Notes under the pieces: model-generated | Told to the model about the DNA's origin: nothing | The model's database searches: none | Seen by the model: only the letters and a program-made list of their open reading frames with translations | Assembly (NCBI GenBank): GCA_948099385.1 | Contig: CANUEZ040000167.1 | Location: 5,927,001 to 5,991,000 of the forward strand | Direction of reading: 5' to 3' | DNA length: 64,000 nucleotides | From: Fasciola hepatica | Taxonomy: Eukaryota > Platyhelminthes > Trematoda > Plagiorchiida > Fasciolidae | Made by a program: the position numbers and the translations under genes | Shown: positions 1,470 to 60,585 of the stretch, piece by piece | Layout of the letters: every line of letters starts with the position of its first letter | Position numbering within the stretch: the first letter of the stretch is position 1

Positions 1470-1518
<49 letters not shown>

Positions 1519-1530
1519 ATAGTGAGTAGT
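1405..1530 (-). repeat. Partial upstream unit of the hammerhead tandem repeat
   Basis: The order of landmarks here (a 'gggtactctgctaccca' hairpin-like motif, then AT-rich sequence, then 'ttgatagtgagtagt') recurs at 1764-1842, about 305-355 bp downstream. The segment is therefore the end of one unit of a tandem repeat whose following unit, 1517-1842, carries the ribozyme. An (AT)n tract has expanded inside it. Confidence 0.55.
1472..1516. repeat. (AT)n microsatellite
   Basis: An uninterrupted run of about 22 AT dinucleotides inside the partial repeat unit. Confidence 0.95.
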
Positions 1531-1838
1531 AGTATGTTAACGTGTGGACAAAATTTCCCCGGAAGCACACGACCGGTTTCGCGGTTGTTGCCGCTCATCA
1601 GGTATGCGTACCCGGTACTCCTCTGCCCACTCGTCTTCATACTTGTACACTCCGATGTTATATGTTCACTAGAATCTAATTTGAAGCGTCTGGAGTGTGA
1701 ATGGATACTCTTCATTGAAGAGCCCACAAATGAATCACAACTGTGATTTCTCATAGTTATTCGTGTCTGGGTCACTGCTAACCCAACGAACAACGAGGCT
1801 GCATGTGCAAGCGCTCATATTGATAGTGAGTAGTGGTA

Positions 1839-1842
<4 letters not shown>
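1517..1842 (-). repeat. Full unit of a hammerhead-bearing tandem repeat (retrozyme-like)
   Basis: The unit is bounded by two direct copies of 'attgatagtgagtagt' (about 1514-1530 and 1818-1835), some 305 bp apart, and has no convincing protein-coding content. It contains the type I hammerhead at 1557-1616. Short tandemly repeated non-autonomous retroelements of a few hundred bp, each with one hammerhead, are known from metazoans and are called retrozyme-like. Membership of that class is inferred from the unit length, the tandem arrangement and the ribozyme. Only one complete unit and parts of its neighbours survive here. Confidence 0.6.
1557..1616 (-). ncRNA. Type I hammerhead ribozyme
   Basis: On the minus strand every core element is present in order. 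The CUGAUGA box is at 1601-1595. Stem II is GCGG (1594-1591) paired with CCGC (1584-1581), closing the loop CAACAA. GAA is at 1580-1578. Stem III is ACC/GGU (1577-1572), only 3 bp with no loop, and C1571 is the expected cleavage-site nucleotide. Stem I pairs GUGUGC (1570-1565) with GCAUAC (1607-1602), has an internal loop, then pairs CCGG (1562-1559) with CCGG (1615-1612), so the ends of the RNA close on stem I, which makes it type I. A very short stem III is typical of hammerheads in satellite-like repeats and retroelements of flatworms and amphibians, and such RNAs usually work best as dimers. All core nucleotides are intact, so self-cleavage is likely if the minus strand is transcribed. Confidence 0.9.

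Positions 1843-1892
<50 letters not shown>
1841..1892. repeat. (AT)n microsatellite with one interruption
   Basis: AT dinucleotide run with one 'acat' interruption. It immediately follows the end of the hammerhead unit and mirrors the (AT)n at 1472-1516 at the same place in the previous unit. Confidence 0.95.
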
Positions 1893-2966: not shown

Positions 2967-5900
2967 AGGGTTTGTACGAGGACTTTATTACCTGCCTCCG
3001 AGTGGGCGGATAAAATAAAGCAGAGAGGACCTACTGTGAGAAAAACTACAAATTATTCAGAAGAGAAAACTGAAAGAATCAACGTGTTCCAGACAGTAAA
3101 AGTGGTGATTGAGTGGTGTGAGCCATCATCATCACAGGTTCGAAGTTCGACCAGTAATCCGTTTTCATTCGAACCGCTACCCAGTCTGACCTGCTGATGT
3201 CATAAATGTTCCGCGACTCGAAGTCCTAAGGTCACGTTCACCAATACGTCCTGATTGACGGCACAATGGACGCATGAAATCGTGGGTGTGTCTCGTCCAG
3301 TGCACTGTAGGATATGCATGAAGTAAAAAGAACCTAGCACCAGATGATGTTTCTTGGTGTTTTCTGGACAGCAATTTTATGACTTCAGTCACTGAAAATT
3401 ACTGGGCCCCAAATTCCCACTGGACGGTAAATTTATGTGAGCCTGAATAGCTTATACACAATGCAACATCGTTGTTTCAAGTGAATTGGAGCAGTGATAT
3501 TCTGGCCTAGTTTGAGCTATTTGACACAACAGTAGGCTAAATCGAAGAAATGATAATAATGTACTGATAAGTGATGACATTTCTTCTGTGAGACGACAAA
3601 ATGCCGAAGACGTGTCGACGATTGAACCAAGTAAGATTTCCCTGCATCGCAATCAACTGGGCGGCGCAACACTTCCCGCCATGCTGCTGACTGCGGCGAG
3701 AACATCACAGCGTAAGCTCAGCGGTGCGCTGTCAGCGATCACATGCCGACACGTATACCATGGTCGAGGTTAATCAGCCAGAAAGAATGCATGAGTCAGA
3801 AGAGTCGGCAACTCAAGGTCGTGCAAGCGGATTTACGGTCCTGATATAGGCGTCATTACTACCGTCAGGCGATTCGCCCGACAGTACGCACATGCGGGAA
3901 TACATGTACACGATCCAAGCGTGTACGCGTACATATTCAACGCCAACATTGTACGTTCTTGGTGTGTCAGTTTATCTATTTGGCCATTCAAGTCCTCGCG
4001 TGATGATGCCGTTGCCCCCCCCCCTGCACAACTTTTTGGTCATCGTCATTTGTCCATCGGAATGATGACACACGTGTCCTTCCCTCTTTGAGTGTGTCTG
4101 TAGTCAACATTTAGGCTCTCGGGCTCTCAAGCCCCGTACTCTCACCCAAACTCGAGTGGCCCGGTCAAGTCGTTCAAACAGTGTTTGTGTGTAAGTGCAT
4201 GATGGGCGAACCACATGGGCCTTCAATTCTGTGGGTGGGAGGTCTCCCAAAAGGTACTACACGTGCATCTTTGTCTGTGTGTGACTGCATACTGCATTGA
4301 CGATCAGAGCACAGGGTGGTGAGGTGATATGCCTGCACGTACTACCAATCAATAACTATCATGGTCAACATGATGGTCACAAAATACAAGTCTGTGTGAT
4401 ATACTTAGATATTGGTCTATCGGGCGGTGAATGCCAGCTACTTGGATATGTGCGTGTGTAACTGCACGCGTACATGCTCAAACGTCCGCACCCCAACCTG
4501 TACACGCTCGCGTATTGGCTCAAATGGGAATGGTCAACATGGTCCCCAGAAGCGGACCGAGCCGAGCAGTACGGCTCTCGGGCGAGCAGGTTAGCTCATG
4601 GCCAGTGCGCGCGTCAGGCCATTCCTTGGCTGATGTGCTTACGCGACGGTTGGTCGTCGTCACGGTGCACTGGCGCGTTTGGTCGCAGCTTTCATTGCGC
4701 TATCAAGCAATCGCGGTTCAGATCGATTGATTCGCACTCCGCTCTGCCGCTGACTGTTGCACTCTGCACGTGTTCCTCCGTGCCACTACCATCGGTCAAG
4801 TGAACTACGCACATTTCTTTCGTTTATCACAGTAAGTCATTGACCGCTGCTACCTTTTTTCCGCTCTGCGTCTTTTCACGTCGCCAGTGGCCTTCCGACT
4901 AATGCTTGTGCCGCACGGTGCTCGCTATAAATTCAGTACAATTTATACGGTCAGGCGTTTCTCTTGCGCGTGCGTATCCGCACACAGTTCGAACGGTTGA
5001 GGCAGCTCTTCTCGCGTGCTCTGAGACAATCACCAGGTTTTGCCCCAAAGGTCGGCCCTGGCAGTGGCAATAGCCCTCTCTGAGATCGCGATTAAAGCTG
5101 GTTCGCTGTTCGCAAACGTCATTTGGCGTGCTGGATTATCATTGTTTCATTTGTCCTAACCGGGTCAGTGTGGTAACTGATCGTAACGCGAGGACAATTC
5201 GTCGAGAACATCTTCGTGAGGTAAGTGGAGGATGTTTCAAGGGCGCGTATTCGCGTGACCAAGTGGTATATTAATTGGACAACATCCCTGGTTCTTTGAT
5301 TAGCTAGAATGTGACAGGTTATAGGGTTAAGGGAGTCCATAGTTGTACTGCCTCCCTGTTCGCAGCTAGTGTGTCGTTCTTAATTTCGTGTCTCATCGGG
5401 CGGTTAAAAATGCTTGTCAGTTTCATTTATTGACCGGAGAATCGATTTAAGGATTTAAACTGGGAGATGTCATCCAGTGAATAGGAAGCTACTCTGTTGC
5501 TACGTTTGTACAGCTCGCCTTGTGTTCTTGCTTCCATCACCTATCATGTTCTAGGTGTTGCGTTTTCTTGTTGCTTTTATTCTGAACCGGATAATGATCC
5601 GAACGGTGGGTTCCGGTTCCACGCCTCTCCCACAAGTATACGTCGACGAGACCTTTTTGCTTGTTTGGATTTTGATGGGCGCTGACGGATAAGGCCTCGG
5701 CTGGGTTGTGCACGAAATTCGGAGACATCGTTTTGCTGCTTTTTTTCGGAGCCAAACGTCTTGGGTATGGCAGTCACAGTCTGTTGAGGTTGGTCGCCTA
5801 TACAGCCGCGTTGTCTCGTTGAAAGGCCGTGCCTAAGTTGATTTACTGGGAACATAGGAAAGGAATTCACTGAGTGTTATGAAGTCGTGCACGCACGACA

Positions 5901-7506: not shown

Positions 7507-7710
7507 CCAAATGTAACTTCAGAGAATTTTTTGTTGGCACGAGGAGCCTGAATCGTATCTAATGGAAAATCCACTTGCGTTCACATGGAAAAGTCGGACG
7601 CCGCGAGCCGGAGACGAACCGGCGACCCTCCGCATACCGGGCAAATGCTCAACCAGCGGCGTCCGACTTTTCCATGTGAATGCAAGTGGATTTTCCATTA
7701 CAAATGTAGA
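7507..7710 (-). repeat. tRNA-derived SINE, family S2, rearranged into a fold-back
   Basis: Begins with the same 'ttggcacgaggagcctgaat' edge as the copy at 40507, followed by part of the same tRNA-like head. Here 7561-7604 is repeated in inverted orientation at 7656-7699 (43 of 44 bases match), with a 51-base loop (7605-7655) holding the truncated tRNA-like region. The fold-back replaces the missing 5' part of the tRNA-like head, so the copy cannot have an intact pol III promoter. Confidence 0.8.
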
Positions 7711-8321: not shown

Positions 8322-9868
8322 TTAGGTCACGTTGAGTTCCAGGGTCGCGGCCAGGCAGTTTGAATGCTCTGGATGATGGATGATCGCTACAGCCTCTATG
8401 ACTATTTTGAAAGGGTTATCGTTTACGTAATGTTCAGTGTCCGTAAGATGCGCCACAATTGCACTGGAAGTGGATTTCCGGTTTCCCCGTCGTCAGCCAA
8501 GCTGGTTTGTGCTCTTTGATCCTTTGCGATAGTTGCCGTGTCGTTCTACCTGTATGGCTTGCCGAACATAAGGAAACAAACTAATAGATTAGCATGGATG
8601 AGGTGAGCACAGGTAACTTGTCTTTTATGTTCTTTGAGATCACCGGTCGACTGGTGAAGCGGTAAAGGTACGAGCGATTGTCTTTTCCAAGTGTCTTATT
8701 GGTAACTCGCTTTTGTCGTCTCGTTTGAAAGGGAGTTGAATGTATAACTCTTTCTTTTTAACGGTCACTAACGATTGCCTCATTGCTGTTCTTGCTATAT
8801 TTTTTTGAATGGAACGTTTGGGGTATCCGTTATCCAGAAGCGTTCTCCTTAGAATGTTTAATTCTTGACTCATCGTCTCATGCGAGCTAATCATATGCAC
8901 ACGGACTGCGAGGGAGCGGATTAGGTTTTGCCTATGCCAATAGGTACAAAGCTAGCGAGATAGGTGTACTACCCTGTCCACGTTGGTTCGCAATATGCGC
9001 GACGAAGCAGTTTTTCCGTCGTCACCTCTTACAAGGAGTGCATCTAGAAGCAGATGTTCCTTTCTTCTACTCCCGATGTAAAGTCAACCGCATTATGAGT
9101 CTGACTGAACTCCTCCACCAATGACGCCAACCGTGTATGATTTTCAGTTAGAACAAAAATATCATCTACGTATCGACGGTAGATGGGTAGACTTTCCATC
9201 ATATCACTAAGTTTCGCATGTTCCAGCTTAGCCATGAATATATTAGCCAGCAAGGGGCCTAGAGGCGACACCATAGCGACTGCATCTGTCTGGCAGTATA
9301 ACTCACCGTTGAAGGTAAACTGGACATTGAAATTGCAAAAGTCCCATCAGATAGGTTACTGGAATATCGACAAGGATTTCGTTTCCTACGATGAAGTCAC
9401 ACGAATAATTGGTTGTTTCTAGAAGCGGAACGTTGGTGAACAAAGATGTCACATCCAGAGAGGCCGTCGTTAGTTCTCCGGCATATTACCCGCTAATGAG
9501 TTCTTTGAATCGGAAATTGTCTTATAGGCTGTAGCGGGCAATCCTTCGGCGAAACGATTCAAGCACATCTACGGGCAACTGAATGATGCACTTATGTTGA
9601 GTATCGGTTTCAATGCTATTGCTGACTTGTGAACCTTTAGTTATCCGTAAAGTCGAGGAATAGCGTCGCCAGTTGGTCTTAGCTGTTCCAGGGCTGTATG
9701 AGAAATAACATTGAGCTCTTTTAGTGACCTAAGAGCTTTCGTTAGTTGCCCTATTGTTCTAATTTTGCCCTTTTCTCCTTCGGGTTTCTTGAACTTTCTT
9801 CGATCCTTTAGTATATCATTCCTCTTTGCGATATAATCTGTACGTTCCATAAGGACAACCCCAATCAC
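8322..9868 (-). pseudogene. Penelope-like element: reverse transcriptase with GIY-YIG endonuclease, broken
   Basis: Domains run in the expected order on the minus strand. At 9868-9641 an N-terminal region starts with 'MIGVVLMERTDYIAKRND' and includes 'LRPTGDAIPRLYG', characteristic of Penelope-like enzymes. At about 9470-9044 the RT core has a 'SLDVTSLFTNVPL' block, 'SPLGPLLANIFMAKLE' and the catalytic box 'YRRYVDDIF' at about 9165. A basic connecting region follows (8900-8640). At about 8577-8322 lies a GIY-YIG nuclease region ('TGRTTRQLSQRIKEHKPAW', then 'VAHLTDTEHYVNDNPFK') ending at a stop at 8322-8324. The RT reading frame is broken by several frameshifts, for example near 9640, 9290 and 9040, and once more inside the nuclease at about 8455, so no full enzyme is encoded. 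Penelope-like elements copy themselves by target-primed reverse transcription using this nuclease. The 5' edge is unclear, and no terminal repeats or hammerhead were found next to it. Confidence 0.85.
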
Positions 9869-29375: not shown

Positions 29376-31134
29376 GGTATTTTAAATGACATTCTTTTAC
29401 ATAAATATATGAGGTGGAAGTGGAGGTGTACGCCCCATAGCTTCACAGACCTACCGTAGAACTATGGACAACTCGTAAAGTGACTCTAAGCAGATCCACA
29501 CGAGATTCCTGACGGTCAGTTATATGGTGATATGTATGTGGTAAAATTCCAAGCCCCTGACCTCGAGATGATAATCGTTGTTGCACCTCTACACCACCAC
29601 CGGCCAAAGAAGGCCCAACCAGAACATCCGATCATTCCAGCTGGTCACTCATACAAGTACTAACCGGAACCGGCGTTGCCTAATTTTTCGGTGATCGAAC
29701 GAGAATCGGTGATTCCAACGTGGTATTGGGTGGTATGTTTGTTGTGAATACACAAACGGATCGAATAAAATCTCGATTAATTCAGGAAGTGGGAAATTTG
29801 TAATTTGAGAAGAAATAACATTATCGTGAGCTCGGATGATTCACTTCCGGAACCATTTCGCTGCCTAATACAAAATGATGAGTTTATATAGCTCCGTATT
29901 TTTTTTATAGAACACACAGACGCTGATAGACCGTGCACTTCTGATTGCCTAGGACGAGTCAGGCTGGCATGACATGACCTTATTGGACATCGCCATTTCA
30001 CTTTCAAGAATTTCAACGAATAAAAACTCCATGTGGTGTATAGTATCCGAAATGATTCGACCGACCCGGCCCTGTGGTTTGCTTCTATCACGTGCCCTGA
30101 TGTCAGTGACGTAGGTACCCTGTGCATACTCTACAGCATTTTCCGCGGTTTAAGAGCCTTGTGCAACATTGGAACAGCCTTGCACCGCAGTTTAAGTACC
30201 TTGTAGCACCATATCTAGTACTGACCACGTCTACCATGTATAAAAGTGGTGTTTCGGATGTTTTGATTCACACGTTTTCAGCATTGATCTGAATTCCAGA
30301 TTGTGTTGGATCCTAAATGCGAAGCCAATTGCGCTGACTGTTGCTTGTTGACCCAACTTGATTGGGCGTATCGGTGTCCTTGTATTCTCTACAAATATAG
30401 ATTCTCATGTACGCTCCTCGTTCTGCACTGAGTTGACATGTAGTGAAGTGATTTCGGAATAAAATCGTGCAACCTGTAGACCGACACTATTCACTCGGTA
30501 CTTTCCTCTGTTCCCATCCGAATTTCATCTTCACCCATTCCATATAACATCGCATTGGAAATAAACCATAGACTTCAACACACAATTCACATTGATCTAT
30601 TGAGTAAACAAAGGAAAGGGAGTCGATATTACTGAAGTTCATTCAAATTTACTTTGGTCCATTATTCAATCAGTATCTTGGCTTTCGTTATCGACGATGG
30701 GTGTGCGCTTTGCCATGTACTTTAGATCCTAGATAAAACTACTCGGTCAAGGTTATCGCAAATCACTTGTGTTTGCACGACCTGACCTTCAATGCTTAGC
30801 ATCTTGTCCATGCGATTTTCGGAACGGGGTCACATATCCGTCCGTTTACGGGGCTCATTGAGTGATTCATCATGTAGATGTGGTATCAGTGCTCAATTCA
30901 CCGCGGAAAAATCAATCGGAACACAGTTGGTGGTTATTTTATTTCGCTTGTTTGGAACCATAAGTTGCAGTGCAAATAGACACTAAGCCCGAATTTAGCC
31001 TAGACACCTACGGTTCATTCATGTTCAAACTGCTGATATATACTGGCAACTGCAGCCAATAGAACCACGTCGGCGATGTGAATTTTCACTTTTCTTCTCG
31101 TGGAATGATTTACTGTACTATTCATAATGTAATG
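29376..31134. other. Unassigned 1.8 kb
   Basis: Apart from a possible S1 head remnant near 29550-29610, nothing recognised. The minus frame 29777-30127 (116 codons) has no domain. Confidence 0.4.
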
Positions 31135-40506: not shown

Positions 40507-40740
40507 TGGCACGAGGAGCCTGAATCGTATGTTTTTGGAAAATCCACTTGCATTCTTCACATCGACGCCGCGAGCCGGAGACGAACCGGCGACCCTCCGC
40601 ATACCGGGCAGATGCTCTACCAGCTGAGCTATCGCGGTCCGGACAGTCCGGCGTGAATAACGCTAGTGAATAATCGATAGTGAGCAAACCACTATTCCAA
40701 TGATACACAGTATCTGTCCTGTTCATGTGATTGCCAAGTG
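40507..40740 (-). repeat. tRNA-derived SINE, family S2, best copy
   Basis: On the minus strand 40638-40567 folds as a tRNA: acceptor ACCGCGA/TCGCGGC with one mismatch, D-arm GCTC/GAGC, anticodon stem TCTGC/GCGGA, T-arm GCCGG/CCGGC around TTCGTCT. The anticodon loop is CCGGTAT, lacking the usual T at position 33, so it is better explained as the head of a SINE than a working tRNA. It continues through 'gaatgcaagtggattttcca' to 'aggctcctcgtgccaaca'. Upstream 'tactgtgtatcattgg' is conserved with 25380. Confidence 0.8.
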
Positions 40741-44982: not shown

Positions 44983-47870
44983 CTACAATAGATCCTCGTT
45001 CATTTGGCTCGCCTGTCGCACTGATCTTCGAACTGGAGCTGGTGGCTGTGGCTCAGCCGCTGCAGCAGTCGTTTCAGTTGGTGGAATAGACGGATCAGTG
45101 CCATAAACACGATTACCGTCAGGATCCTCAGTCGTCTCACCCGTGCGATCGGTTACATTGTGAGTTGCCATCATGACATGGATTTGGCTGTGGTGGCACC
45201 GATGCACAGATGCATCAACGAAGTCCGTGATCTCGACCATAGATTAGCCAAGTCGTCCTGTGATAATTCCACCAATTGGTCGAAGCTTGTTGCCACAGAA
45301 GTCTGTGACATCACTGGAGTCAAGACACATCAGCGATGACCGTAGTCTTATGGACTTGAAGAGAACGGCTGGACTCTCCTTGGTGGTTGTATGCACTGCG
45401 CTTCCGTACTGCAACAAGAAATTGTCGAGGAACGTTCTCAAGTCGGGCAATGTCCTCGGGTTGGCTGAAGTTATTTCACTTTTCACAGAACGCATTAAGT
45501 TTTCCGCTGCGTCGTTAGAACATGGGTCGCGTGGTGCCGTACGTAGATGCCAACACCCAACTCTATCAAGCCAGCATTTTAGCTTCACAGCACAGAATTG
45601 TGATCTCTTATCGGCGACTAGTACCTGTGAGACTCCTTCTCGGCTGAAGCATTTCCGTAACACCTGGTTTACGAACCAGGTGGTTGGTGAACTAGTCATA
45701 GGCACTTCCGGCCACTTAGAGTAAGAGTCGATCAGTACAAGAGCGCGATACCGGTTCAAGAATAGGCCACAGAAATCAGCATGAACCCCCTGCCATGGAA
45801 TGTAGCTTTCATGCCATGTATTCCAGTTGTTTGGCCTCGACTGAACTTTGTGCAAACCCGCATTACAGTTCTTTGCCGTAGTGCTAATATCCGCATTCAA
45901 TTCCGGACACCAACACATCTGTCGAGCCAGCGACTTCATTTTATCCATGCCCAAGTGGTCTTTGTGCAGTTCATCCAAAACTAACTTGCCCAATGTAGTT
46001 GGAATGACAAGCCGGTCATCTCGACGAAGGACGTCGGCAGGTTGGATACTAAATTCTTTTCGCAATACGAAGAACTGAGGAAATTTGTGCTTCACCTCGG
46101 GCTGCCATCCCTTCCGGATTGCCGAAATCACAGATGAGTAGTATCGTTTTGTCTGTCTGCTCGATTCCTCCCTCGACACAGGCACAGCAGGCGAAGTGAA
46201 ATGGCATCAGTCCGCCGCTGCAGTTCGTGAATGTTGTGACAGAAATCCCGTTTGAGGGACTGCCGCTCCGGGTCGATGCGGAGTAGTTCACTGATAGGCA
46301 GCTAAGGCAATGCTCCATCGCAGAATCATACCAGTCGTGGATTTGACGACGGACTTATCTGGGTTATATGGGAACTGAAGGGCTTAATGGTCGGTGACAA
46401 TCGTAAATTTCAGTCCAAAAAGGTACTTGTGCAGTCAGTGTACCGCCAAGAAAAAGATAAATGCTTCCTTCTGCGTCTGGGAATAACCCGTCTCAGCAAC
46501 ACTGTGAAGACGCGAGATGCAGATGATTGGATATCCATCTTGTCCCAGAAGTGTTCCTATCCCCATTTCGGACGTTTCGGTGATCAGCGTGGTCCGTTTA
46601 GATGGTGCAAATGGCGCTAGTATCGGTCGGTCAACGATACTTCGAGTAAAACCGCGTAGTGTCTCTTCAGACAGTTCGTTCCACTGCCACACATCAGATG
46701 ACTGAGCTAGAAACAATGGTTTGGCTCTTGTTGCAAAGTTCGGAATGATTCTGTAGTAGTATTGCAGGTATCCAAGAGTTATTCGTTAGTGTACCTGATT
46801 TTTCGCTGACTCGATGCCATTCACAGGCTTGAAATGATCTGGATCGGGTTGGTATCCATTTGCATTGACATTGAAATCAAGGAAATCTAATCAGATGATA
46901 CCGAACTTGTACTTGATGGCTTTGATCTATACATTCCTTCCCACAAATCTCTCCAGCAACTTTTGTAATCTCTTGTTGTGTTCTTCCTTTGTGGATTCGA
47001 AAGGGAGCACATCATCTTTATATGCCATCACCCCATCGATATCATGGATCACCTCGTGTATTGCAGACTGAAATATCCCGAATGATACGTGCAAACGGAA
47101 TGGCAAGAGGTTGCTTTGGAAAGGGCCCTATAAAGCGTTAAAAGTTGGTAATGTTTTAAATTCCGTGCTCAGAGGAATTTGTAAGCAGGCGTCAGCCAGA
47201 TCAACATTTTGTGAAATACATGCTGCCGAGCATGTATTTCTCGAAGTCCTCCACTGTAGTTGCCGCGCATTTCAGTAAACGAGAATTCAAGGTCAATCGG
47301 TAATCACCACAAATCCGGGGGTTTTGTCCATCACTCTCCATCACCACCACTATCGGAGTCACCCATGTGGACGAAGTCGTATGGGCAATGACACCGTCTT
47401 GTTCCATTTTGGTAAGCACCTTGAGAACACCCTCTCTGTGGCCGTACGGCAACACTCAGTGCTTCAGGAATATCGGATGACCATCCACTTTCAACTCCGC
47501 GGGCTCGACCACCAATTCACCTTTATTGTTCGAGCTTTGTGCGATCAACTGCTGAAGAACAAGCTGATTTACCGGACTGTCGGACGTCGTTTTCAGGGTT
47601 ACCGATTTCTCCGAGGCACGCAGGGTCTTCAAGCTCAGAATCGATGAACCATCTATGGAAATCAAGAATCGTACCGGGGTATAGTCGCCCTCCAACCGAA
47701 CCATTAGTGTAGTCTCACCTAGCAGTGAAAGTGGATTGGTTAAACCAAGTCGAACACTGATTTCGGGGTAATGGATTCACAGCTCCTGGTATCCACAATG
47801 AACTGATGTCTCAAGCCGCATTGGAATTGAACTGATCTGTACAGGTATTGGTTTGATTCACTCGAAATCT
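44983..47870 (-). pseudogene. Gypsy copy B pol: protease, RT, RNase H, integrase
   Basis: Protease near 47790 shows 'HQFIVDTRSCESITPKS', with Arg where the active-site Gly is expected. RT from about 47500: 'RICGDYRLTLNSRLL'; a frameshift at about 47218 just before the first catalytic Asp; 'MAYKDDVLPF' at about 47030. RNase H (46716-46300) has 'YSQTQKEAFIFF', then stops. Integrase (46185-45244) is a 313-codon open stretch: zinc-binding part 'HLGMDKMKSLARQMCWCPEL' with its last Cys replaced (CNAG), and catalytic residues all present in 'VHADFCG', 'VADKRSQF' and 'AAENLMRSVK'. The tail (45240-44983) is Pro- and Arg-rich. Integrase is the only domain without internal stops. Confidence 0.85.
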
Positions 47871-47939
47871 TCAGCGTGTACACGGGACTATCATCAGTTT
47901 TCCGATCTTAAGGGGTTGCACTCGTAACATTGCACTTGG

Positions 47940-48670
47940 ATTGACGACATATCTTGCGAATGTGACCAAGCTTTCCATAAGAATGGCATACCGCATTACG
48001 ATAGCAGCCAGTGAAACATAGGTGAAATTCGCCTCATGAGACGCAACGACTCTGCTCTACTTGTTCGCGTTCAGGAATCATTTTGTTAGCAGGCTTCGGT
48101 TGAGGCGTCTTCTTTGTAGAGACTGGTTTACGGGGACGAACGTGTTAGTAGTGCACTACGGAATGTACAACCATCGTATCGGCTACGTCATCGAATTTTT
48201 CGCAGGTTGACCGAGCTACAGAGAACGTAAGGTCGGGCTTCAGCAATTGCTTCTTTTGCAAAATCGGATGGTTTATGCCGGCAATGAGGCGGTCACGCAA
48301 GTGAACTCCAGAATTACACTTAGCAGCCTGTCTGAAGTGTCAGGATGAATTCACGGAACTTCATGTTGGGACCACAAACCAGCGAATGAAATTTGGCACG
48401 TTTGGTAGCCCGGAAATTGACCGGAACCACGTGGCTTAGCAGTACAGCCTTCAACTCGTCGAATGGAACTGCAGCAGGGGTTCTCGGATATGCAAGGATT
48501 TTCATCAACGAGTACAATGAACGGCCGCCAGCGGTCAAGAAGAATGCAGGCTGGTTCTCCTTATTCACAGTCTTTCGTATGCTACACCATAACTCGAGAC
48601 GTTCAATCGAGTCTTCAATTTCAGATGCACTATCACGCAGGTTCAGCTGTTCACTACTGGGCAGCTCCAT
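47940..48670 (-). pseudogene. Gypsy copy B gag
   Basis: The start fits the ATG at 48670 ('MELPSSEQLNLRDSA'), just downstream of the 5' LTR. Capsid-like part: 'ENQPAFFLTAGGRSLYSLM', 'FDELKAVLLSHVVPVNFRAT', 'AKFHSL' and 'KFREFILTLQ', closely parallel to gag of copy C. A stop at about 48320 is followed in another frame by the rest of gag and a zinc knuckle near 47970 ('GKLGHIRKIC') whose second Cys is Tyr. Confidence 0.8.
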
Positions 48671-56878: not shown

Positions 56879-57833
56879 ATGGAGCTGCCCAGTACTGAAC
56901 AGCTGAACCTGCAAGCTGATGCACCTGAAAGTGAAGACTGGAGTGAACGGTTCGAGTTAAGATGCAGCATACGAAAGGATATGAAGAAAGACAACCAGCC
57001 TACATTCTTGTTGACCGCTGGCGGCCGTGGATTGTATGCACTGATGGTGAAATTAGCATACCCGAGAGACCTTGTTACAGCTCCATTCGACGAGTTGAAG
57101 GCTGTACTGCTAGGCCACGTAGTTTCGGTCACTTTCCAGGCTACCGAACATGCCAAATTCCATTCATTGGTTCGTGATTCCAGCGTGAAGTTCCGTGAAT
57201 TGATGATGATACTACAAGCACAGATTGTGGGGGGCATGGGCTGACTCATTGTCGATGGACAACCAAGTCACGTCATCAGCCAGAACGTGTGTGGAACCGA
57301 GCCCAAGGCTTGAGACAACGGAAACTCGAGTGACAAGACAGCCGACTGGTTCGATAGTCTGAGTGATGAACCCTGTCAGCGGTGTTCAGGCGTCAAGGCT
57401 CAGTTGCCTACACTAGTCGGACCAATAGGCTGAATCTAACGTCTGGGTACTTGAACCAGAATCTCACATATTCAGTATTTTACACTTATAAACGAGATGA
57501 CTCGAGGGCAGAAAAGTCTTTTCACTAGAGTTAGTGGAACGGTACGAAACACAGGCTGCGAATTGTAACCTCAGAAGACAATTGGAGACCCAATTGCGTG
57601 ACAGCTTAATTACCGGTGTAAATCATCCGGAGCTGCAGAAGAAGCTATTTCTGAAACCCAACCTCACGTTCTCTGCAGCTCGGTCAACTTGCGGGCAGTA
57701 CGATGACATATCCGATGTGACTACTGAACATTCCGTAGTGCCCTACCAACACGTTCGTCCCCGTAAACCAGCCCGTCCAAGTCAAACACATCAACCGAAG
57801 CCGACTAACAAGACGATTCCTGAACGCAAATAA
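56879..57833 (+). pseudogene. Gypsy copy C gag, split by repeat Z
   Basis: Starts at the ATG at 56879 ('MELPSTEQLNLQADAPES'). The first part reads 'NQPTFLLTAGGRGLYALM' and 'KFRELMMILQAQ', ending where repeat Z enters at about 57222. Gag resumes at about 57550 with 'LRDSLITGVNHPELQKKLF' and 'AARSTCGQYDDISDVT', then a basic Pro-rich segment to a stop at 57831-57833. A zinc knuckle follows in another frame near 57915 ('PCGKTGHIRKVC'), lacking its first Cys. Confidence 0.85.
57223..57547 (+). repeat. LTR-like dispersed repeat, family Z, copy 4
   Basis: Inserted in gag of Gypsy C in the same orientation. 'cacag' lies at both junctions (57218-57222 and about 57548-57553), a probable 5-bp target duplication. 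It contains 'gagcccaaggcttgagacaa', 'cttataaacgagatgactcg' and an end of 'tagtggaacggtacgaaa'. Confidence 0.7.
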
Positions 57834-60013
57834 CCATAACGGAATCGCTGATTCTCGTGCGACGAATTCCTTTTACACTTCACGTTTCAATTCCGTAATG
57901 CGATACACCATCCCTGTGGAAAGACTGGTCATATTCGAAAGGTGTGCCCTCAATCCGAGTGCAATGTGACGAGTGTAACCACTGAGGATCCGAAAAATGA
58001 TGACAATCTGGTATACACACTGAAGATCTCGAGTGAATACAGCCAATTACTGTACAAATCAGTCCAGTTCCAATGTGGCTTGAGACATTGATTCACTATG
58101 GATACCAGGAGCCGCGAGTCCATTATTCCGAAATCAGTGTTTGATTTGATTCAGCCCAGTGTGCTCATACATTCGACTGCCGTGCGCATTCACGGTGTCA
58201 CTGGTTATCGACTTTATTTACTGAGTGAGACTGCACTAATGATTCCGTTGGAGAGCAACTATATCCCGGTACAATTCCTGATTTTCAAAGAGAGTCCATC
58301 GATTCTGGGCTTGAAGGCCCTGCGTGCATTGAAACAATTTGTAACCTTCCATACAACTTCCGAGAATCCAATGGATTAGCCTATTCCCCGGCCGTTGATT
58401 GCACAGTGCTCCAGTAACAAGGTGGCATAGCGGTTGAGCTCGCAAGTTGGAAGTGGATGGTCATCCGATATTCCTGAAGCACTGAGTATTGCCGTACGGC
58501 CACAGAGAGGGTGTTCTCAAGGTGCTTACCAAAATGGAACAAGACGGTGTCATTGCCCATACGACTTCGTCCACATGGGTGACTCCGATAGTGGTGGTGA
58601 TGGAGAGCGACGGACAAAAACCCCGGATTTGTGGTGATTACCGATTGACCTTGAATTCTCGTTTACTGAAATGCGCGGCAACTACAGTGGAGGACTTCGA
58701 GAAATACATGCTCGGCAGCATGTATTTCACAAAAAGTTGATCTGGCTGACGCCTGCTTACAAATTCCTCTGAACACGGAATTTAAAACATTACCAACTTT
58801 TAACGCTTTATAGGGCCCTTTCCAAAGCAACCTCTTGCCATTCCGTTTGCACGTATCATTCGGGATATTTCAGTCTGCAATACACGAGGTGATCCATGAT
58901 ATCGATGGGGTGATGGCATATCAAGATGATGTGCTCCCTTTCGAATCCACAAAGGAAGAACACAACAAGAGATTACAAAAGTTGCTGGAGAGATTTGTGG
59001 GAAGGAATGTATAGATCAAAGCCATCAAGTACAAGTTCGGTATCATCTGATTAGATTTCCTTGGTTTCAATGTCAATGCAAATGGATACCAACCCGATCC
59101 AGATCATTTCAAGCCTGTGAATGGCATCGAGTCAGCGAAAAATCAGGTGCACTAACGAATAACTCTTGGATACCTGCAATACTACTACAGAATCATTCCG
59201 AACTTTGCAACAAGAGCCAAACCATTGTTTCTAGCTCAGTCATCTGATGTGTGGCAGTGGAACGAACTGTCTGAAGAGACACTACGCGGTTTTACTCGAA
59301 GTATCGTTGACCGACCGATACTAGCGCCATTTGCACCATCTAAACGGACCACGCTGATCACCGAAACGTCCGAAATGGGGATAGGAACACTTCTAGGACA
59401 AGATGGATATCCAATCATCTGCATCTCGCGTCTTCACAGTGTTGCTGAGACGGGTTATTCCCAGACGCAGAAGGAAGCATTTATCTTTTTCTTGGCGGTA
59501 CACTGACTGCACAAGTACCTTTTTGGACTGAAATTTACGATTGTCACCGACCGTTAAGCCCTTCAGTTCCCATATAACCCAGATAAGTCCGTCGTCAAAT
59601 CCACGACTGGTATGTTTCTGCGATGGAGCATTGCCTTAGCTGCCTATCAGTGAACTACTCCGCATCGACCCGGAGCGGCAGTCCCTCAAACGGGATTTCT
59701 GTCACAACATTCACGAACTGCAGCGGCGGACTGATGCCATTTCACTTCGCCTGCTGTGCCTGTGTCGAGGGAGGAATCGAGCAGACAGACAAAACGATAC
59801 TACTCATCTGTGATTTCGGCAATCCGGAAGGAATGGCAGCCCGAGGTGAAGCAAAAATTTCCTCAGTTCTTCGTATTGCGAAAAGAATTCAGTATCCAAC
59901 CTGCCGACGTCCTTCGTCGAGATGACCGGCTTGTCATTCCAACTACATTGGGCAAGTCAGTTTTGGATGAACTGCACAAAGGCCACTTGGGCATGGATAA
60001 AATGAAGTCGCTG
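57834..60013 (+). pseudogene. Gypsy copy C pol: protease, RT, RNase H, start of integrase
   Basis: Protease at about 58100 with 'MDTRSRESIIPKS' (Arg at the active-site Gly, as in copy B). RT: 'RICGDYRLTLNSRLL' at about 58625, a frameshift at about 58730 identical in place to that of B, and 'MAYQDDVLPF' at about 58915 with the usual YQDD retained. RNase H at 59225-59640 shares the stops of copy B. Integrase N-terminal part in 59756-60013 ends 'HLGMDKMKSL' and then runs into unrelated sequence. No domain can be active as encoded. Confidence 0.85.
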
Positions 60014-60585
60014 ACTCTATTGCTTTGTTAGTTTAAAGTCATGAAGTCTTTATAAGAGATTAGATTAAATTCAACTGCTAAGTAAGTGAATAACGGTGAC
60101 GCAGTTGTCAGGAAATAGTTACAAGCTGATAGACGTTTCTTTTTGGACAATTGCTTGAGGATAGCACTCGTCGGCTTTACTGATAATTCTTTTGAAGGAG
60201 ATTGATCAAAGTGAATTTCATCCCGTGAAATTAGCAAAATTCATGATCATTGGTAATCAAAGGCTCAAATCAAAATCTAGCTAGAGCTTACTACTGGGAT
60301 AAGTCTTATTATTTAGGAAACTCCTTGGGAAATGTACCGAAATTCAATCCAACAGATTATCGATTGTCAAGTGGTTGATGATTGCAAGCTTGTGGATCGG
60401 ACAAGGAAAATCAGCCGCTCTCATTCGCAGTGATACTAAGCGATTATGAAATGATTCAGTTAGCCCTTCACTAGACAATAGGTGAAATGCGGAGAAAGCT
60501 GAGAAAATTTGCCATGGACAATATCCGAAGGGAAAGTCGATAACTGCAACGACTGCATGCAGGTTAGAGAAAAAAAGAATCATAC
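60014..60585. other. Unassigned sequence after the Gypsy C truncation
   Basis: Unrelated to Gypsy. The segment 60550-60585 could be the start of an intron for the minus-strand reading frame at 60586 ('ctaggtatga' donor-like and 'aacctgcatgcag' acceptor-like on the minus strand). No known family. Confidence 0.35.

Follow-up and report, generated by a model that had tools for sequence, protein, structure and literature searches.

A type I hammerhead ribozyme in a Fasciola hepatica repeat whose copies mostly end at two UAUA sites adjoining (TA)n

The window analysed here is a 64 kb stretch of Fasciola hepatica DNA (C167:5927001-5991000) that contains only one copy of a repeat with a unit length of 300-304 bp. 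This single dispersed copy lies on the minus strand at 1513..1838, measures 326 bp or 1.07 units and is 99.7% identical to the unit of an array on C186. Its sense strand is the minus strand, along which it spans unit positions 283 to 304 and then 1 to 304, and it is flanked on both sides by (TA)n, with a tract at 1472..1516 on the sense-3' side and a second, carrying one interruption, at 1840..1892 on the sense-5' side. A repeated ACTACTCACTATCAATAT was at one stage taken for a target-site duplication of ~23-26 bp around the copy, an idea that was dropped as ACTACTCACTATCAATAT lies inside the unit and the copy is therefore merely longer than one unit. In many copies of the family a target-site duplication (> 4 bp) would be indistinguishable from the flanking (TA)n. 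The remainder of the window holds an LTR-retroelement integrase-like frame (45244-46185, minus strand), in which Integrase_H2C2 scores above and rve just below the Pfam cut-off, and a stretch at 45924-48303 that is repeated in inverted orientation at 57591-60017 with 89% identity. A tRNA-Thr-like sequence (40566-40638, minus strand) lies within a stretch 87% identical to 7518-7657 and is perhaps a tRNA-derived SINE, and a 5S rRNA-like sequence (29617-29734, minus strand) scores 38.6 against an Rfam threshold of 38.

The repeat copy carries a type I hammerhead ribozyme at 1559..1615 on the minus strand, recognised by the Rfam HH9 model, by a motif descriptor and by the anatomy of its fold. Along the minus strand it consists of stem Ib (CCGG 1612-1615 paired with CCGG 1559-1562), an internal loop in stem I (GUAC 1608-1611 opposite UU 1563-1564), stem Ia (GCAUAC 1602-1607 with GUGUGC 1565-1570), the core CUGAUGA (1595-1601), stem II (GCGG 1591-1594 with CCGC 1581-1584) capped by the loop CAACAA (1585-1590), the core GAA (1578-1580) and stem III, the loop-less palindrome ACCGGU (1572..1577). 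Cleavage is predicted from this anatomy to fall after C1571 (1570..1571). A sequence-only reading had described a complete set of core nucleotides with the cleavage-site C, a 4-bp stem II with a six-base loop and a two-part stem I with an internal loop, and all of these were located. The conserved core CUGAUGA ... GAAA ... UH is present and both the 5' and the 3' end lie in helix I, as the HH9 alignment and the internal loop of stem I indicate, a topology that is type I and differs from the type III hammerhead of the plant LTR retrozymes.

HH9 (RF02275) matched positions 1548-1620 with 41.2 bits and an E-value of 5.6e-9 when 801 bases were searched, equivalent to 4.4e-7 over the whole 64 kb. 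The covariance-model match that had been proposed as a check was thus obtained, but it falls short of the curated gathering score of 52 for HH9, which is why it is absent from the default Rfam scan of the window, where only tRNA and 5S rRNA are listed. Such a scan reports the best model per clan only, and HH9 is the best hammerhead model for this sequence. The descriptor search, also proposed beforehand, used a loose hammerhead descriptor and gave a single match in 64 kb, at the same hammerhead, against an average of 0.03 matches in each of 100 random (Markov) sequences of 64 kb. Taken together the HH9 match and the uniqueness of the descriptor match relative to random sequence show that the hammerhead is real, and bear out the very low probability that had been attached to a chance origin.

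Stem III had been read as a loop-less helix of 3 bp. The sequence ACCGGU is indeed present, without a loop and as its own reverse complement, but with no loop between its three pairs the closing of such a stem costs energy, and a hammerhead with only the outer A-U closed over CCGG has a predicted energy of -12.9 kcal/mol, whereas without stem III the value is -18.4. Between two hammerheads the same six bases are predicted to form six pairs, and of the three helices stem III is complete only in this predicted double hammerhead. Two separate strands co-fold into the double form at -49.5 against 2 x -23.1, and for a natural two-hammerhead stretch from the C186 array the unconstrained fold is the double hammerhead at -129.1 kcal/mol, compared with -123.8 kcal/mol when two single hammerheads are enforced. 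These predictions favour the earlier suggestion that cleavage proceeds mainly as a dimer. The tandem arrangement that was to supply the dimer does not hold at the window locus, which has one copy of 1.07 units and one hammerhead, and tandem arrays are found elsewhere in the genome. With such a palindromic stem III the hammerhead should require a second one to work with, of which the sequence is a clean natural example, and it would then be cleaved only within tandem or multimeric RNA.

Short or weak third helices have been described in other systems. The available sections of PMC7229834 describe amphibian retrozymes with a weak helix III that are active as dimers, and the newt and axolotl satellite hammerheads (short helix III, weak monomer, efficient dimer) resemble the present one by description; the nearest Rfam model for the window hammerhead is HH9. 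Minimal Penelope-like hammerheads, as characterised in the parts of PMC7761336 consulted, are alike in having a very short or missing helix III and a proposed dimer cleavage; they differ in that the window hammerhead sits in a 300-bp repeat and that L079, a Penelope-like stretch of the same genome, has no hammerhead match.

The repeat as a whole has the properties by which metazoan non-LTR retrozymes are characterised in the accessible text of PMC7229834, namely tandem repeats ~150-450 bp long that contain a type I hammerhead, a GC content below 50% and a stable predicted fold. The GC content of the unit is 0.46, and its circular form folds at -98.6 compared with -72.9 +/- 5.0 in 200 shuffles (z -5.2). 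At 304 bp the unit is too short to code for its own reverse transcriptase, which sets it apart from the Penelope-like elements. No exact match to the RNA polymerase III box A or B consensus was found in the unit, and neither phage records nor an exact-pattern search of IMG/VR gave a match. The hammerhead probably belongs to a non-autonomous non-LTR retrozyme that has a unit of 301-304 bp and spreads by (TA)n-primed reverse transcription. Retrozyme anatomy with a dimer-prone type I hammerhead makes it a known kind of element, and what is new is that most of its sense-3' ends lie on the unit's two UAUA sites, generally adjoining (TA)n. Among metazoan non-LTR retrozymes it stands out by its loop-less palindromic stem III, by the two UAUA junction sites in (TA)n and by its frequent head-to-head copies.

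The two sites are the only places in the unit where ATAT or TATA occurs. Site A (unit 154-158; 1659..1663 in the window copy, minus strand; ACATATA) and site B (unit 301-304; 1513..1516, minus strand, overlapped by the sense-3' (TA)n tract; CAATAT) are both predicted to be single-stranded, with unpaired probabilities of 0.84 and 0.95, the mean being 0.377. Insertion ends were compared in 17 dispersed loci: the window, C61 (L014), C186 (L009), C20 (L015), C116 (L016, L037) and 12 others (L044, L048, L051, L052, L061-L064, L066, L069, L074, L076). The C20 locus runs into an assembly gap before any 3' end is reached, and the remaining 16 loci yielded 26 arms, of which three (C186 and both C116 arms) had their ends placed by hand and the others by one alignment rule. 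Eleven of the sense-3' ends, that of the window copy included, fell at site B (unit 299-304 or 1-3), eight at site A (150-160) and seven elsewhere. That 19 of 26 ends should fall within an allowed stretch of 20 of the 304 positions has a binomial P of 1.5e-17, the allowed windows having been made wide because alignment ends beside (TA)n can drift a few bases towards ATAT. A TA run >= 8 adjoins 15 of the 19 ends at sites A and B and 3 of the 7 others (window background 0.004), the four off-site ends without TA being L044+, L051+, L052+ and L066+.

A caveat attaches to these counts, in that the junction rule was derived from the earliest loci and then applied to 12 further dispersed loci, some of which were afterwards set aside. 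In four of these later-fetched loci (L066, L069, L074, L076) 7 of 8 arms ended at the two sites (P 4e-8); in the other eight, which were placed in a sister family once their ends were known, 1 of 11 arms did so, and with all arms of the 12 loci counted the figure is 8 of 19. The sister family comprises 14 loci with 19 arms (L041-L043, L047, L049, L050, L065, L067, L068, L070-L073, L075), which have the same hammerhead and another 3' sequence (TGTAGATACTA or similar in many). It was separated by this 3' sequence and by a shorter, mostly less similar match, and the identity ranges of the two families overlap (L071 reaches 88% over 108 nt). None of the 19 sister-family arm ends bore a TA run >= 8, and with these arms included 20 of 45 ended at the two sites.

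Four of 6 non-inverted copies, among them the window copy, also had a TA run >= 8 at their 5' end, which was lacking in L014 and L048; C20 had no TA run in the 5' flank examined. The youngest copies, with 5' ends at unit 254, 263, 263 and 283, made it look likely that these ends arose by run-off close to the cleavage site (unit 246), a reading rejected on the evidence of L048 (110), L061 (301) and L063 (83). The distribution of TA bears on whether the tracts preceded the insertions. They might be tails made during insertion by stutter of the reverse transcriptase on UAUA at the priming site, of the kind that could come from a telomerase-like enzyme or from LINEs with microsatellite tails. The bias of TA towards the sense-3' side (a run >= 8 in 18 of 26 arms) and the two copies without a run of that length on the 5' side are as such tails would leave them, but TA on the sense-5' side of the other four copies is not, and the 201-nt tract in L009 would need much stutter or later growth; we consider this origin of the tracts unlikely. 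(L009 also contains, at 4547-4699 on the plus strand, a U1 snRNA-like match whose 46.2 bits fall short of the 69.5 set as threshold for the family.)

The genome searched amounted to 1.50 Gb in 656 contigs. All 15 samples taken from C246 (512,635 bp) and all four from C403 (72,519 bp) consist of the unit, which makes up at least 1,490 of the 1,501 bases of each sample, and if the unsampled rest is alike these two contigs would hold ~1,900 units. Full units in the arrays read were 97.4-100% identical to the window unit. Older units of ~302 bp, 82-92% alike, filled every stretch read between 2.060 and 2.240 Mb of C72, and when a diverged relative served as the query there were 1,539 candidate places, 40 of which were scored and yielded 48 matches. 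Many of the dispersed copies are decayed.

The C116 array is head-to-head with about 3 and 24 units and has a haplotype of its own. Each of the 27 units covered at the two positions, whichever arm it belongs to, carries T64C and G175A, which are absent from all other loci compared (L009-L037 and the window). The four full units of C20 are alike (compared to position 292), as are the three full units of C186. Such uniformity within arrays would suit one RNA template read around several times, and would suit later amplification of DNA equally. Counting against a single circular template is unit position 293, where a mixture of C and T that such a template does not predict runs along both C116 arms with no regular period (8 T/7 C and 2 T/1 C in L016, 6 T/5 C in L037, one unit being common to both).

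Of the 114 distinct hammerheads taken from relatives, 83 retained the full set of 13 core nucleotides and 86 retained ACCGGT, a collection in which insertions in stem III would be missed because extraction was ungapped. In young arrays the 13 core positions had 2 distinct variants (8 of 3250 bases), against 102 distinct variants at the 247 positions of the rest of the unit, and the variability of the whole hammerhead was only slightly lower than elsewhere in the unit (0.63% against 0.80% of bases). Covariation in the helices gave no clear signal in 250 young-array units, 7 of 16 distinct stem I and II variants preserving the pair. An ordinary satellite with a fossil hammerhead, spread by unequal crossing-over only and leaving its dispersed copies as old debris, could accommodate the entirely satellite composition of the C246 and C403 samples, the decay of many dispersed copies and of some hammerhead cores, and a young-array hammerhead that is barely less variable than its surroundings. 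It is nonetheless improbable, for near-identical young copies occur in unrelated places with common junction rules, the C116 array has a private haplotype and the core is nearly invariant relative to the rest of the unit.

Further evidence on the route of insertion comes from copies with opposed arms, which were found in 10 loci. In nine of the 17 dispersed loci the arms are head-to-head with the sense-3' ends outside (C116, L044, L051, L052, L062, L064, L066, L074, L076), and in five of these nine both outer ends carry a TA run >= 8. Where the two arms meet, they overlap by 7 bases in L044, 9 in L052, 2 in L062, 3 in L064, 4 in C116 and 21 in L074; there is no overlap in L076, and in L051 and L066 the arms are separated by 5 and 3 bases. 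The tenth locus, L069, is tail-to-tail around one TA tract and may represent two insertions. A head-to-head structure is the product expected if priming took place on the two sides of a single break, because the palindromic nature of (TA)n allows either broken end to pair with UAUA. The polarity of the junctions was also apparent from pattern counts over the whole genome. The site-B junction CTATCA(AT)9 occurred 575 times (278 + 297), counted as pattern matches and not individually read, against 15 (7 + 8) for the reversed pattern, and (AT)9GAGCGC, on the opposite side of site B, occurred 20 times (13 + 7) against 6 reversed (3 + 3), a preference for the sense-3' side of ~29-fold in raw counts, in which old 5' junctions may be undercounted because GAGCGC holds a CpG and may decay. 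Capture of array DNA or extrachromosomal circles into (TA)n breaks by ATAT microhomology, with no RNA step, could draw on the break-prone nature of (TA)n tracts, the microhomology at the junctions and the tandem arrays available as donors, but is very improbable given this strong polarity at site B (with the CpG reserve on its 5' count) and the sense-3' ends lying outside in 9 of 10 opposed-arm loci, as two-sided priming predicts, with tail-to-tail L069 the other.

The following sequence of events is proposed for retrozyme spread by reverse transcription. Multimeric transcripts would cut themselves, mainly as double hammerheads, and the unit-length RNA would be circularised by analogy with known retrozymes; coral, mussel and axolotl retrozymes make RNA circles according to the available text of Cervera and de la Pena (2020, PMC7229834). 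An enzyme would break (TA)n microsatellites, and the 3' end of a broken tract would anneal to either exposed UAUA loop and prime reverse transcription. Priming by both ends of the break would give a head-to-head insertion. On balance we are inclined to think that the two UAUA primer-binding loops home the retrozyme RNA to (TA)n, where the ends prime, often on both sides, and that repeated rounds on the circle produce arrays such as that of C116. How such circles re-enter the genome, and which enzyme acts, is left open in the portions of PMC7229834 and PMC7761336 at hand, and the Discussion of the former, as far as it was available, leaves open whether target DNA or a small RNA primes the circle. 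The junctions described here point to one answer, priming at the two UAUA loops by (TA)n ends. If true, the proposal would explain how animal retrozymes are primed and integrated, the step that has been missing, and would show a way in which a dispersed retroelement can give rise to large satellite DNA.

No report of retrozyme ends at UAUA or (TA)n was found in the open-access literature searched. Schistosome W elements, which are likened to the present repeat by description, are satellite-like transcribed repeats with hammerheads in some families and some dispersed copies, and the accessible part of PMC8490949 describes no (TA)n junction rule for them. For Nematostella repeats 15-bp duplications are reported in the available section of PMC4918200.

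The available text of PMC7229834 names Penelope-like elements as a strong candidate for the enzyme. Their reverse transcriptases appear abundant in the genome, with 3,747 first-look candidates and open frames of up to 847 aa, 150 of the candidates having been scored. The query fragment for this search (L038) was named as Penelope-like by eye and matched no Pfam family, while the reverse transcriptase of L079 matched Pfam RVT_1 at 2.6e-11 and its GIY-YIG end was recognised by eye with no Pfam match. In L079, the one Penelope-like stretch read, there was no hammerhead match at E <= 1 and no TA tract, and the idea that a Penelope-like element carries the same hammerhead was rejected on these grounds. 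A preference of Penelope elements for simple, AT-rich target DNA is reported in the part of PMC3846280 consulted. The Anolis Penelope-like element PAc makes its cut in AT-rich DNA and extends both of the strands, and its reverse transcription begins within its own RNA, two start sites being noted (PMC11167929). The cutting of AT-rich DNA, the extension of two strands and the internal start resemble the junction pattern of the retrozyme, but the start site of PAc shares no homology with the DNA that it cuts (PMC11167929), whereas the UAUA sites of the retrozyme match (TA)n. The window itself contains, at 8488-9862 on the minus strand, a Penelope-like reverse-transcriptase relic in several pieces with 32-39% identity to the L079 frame.
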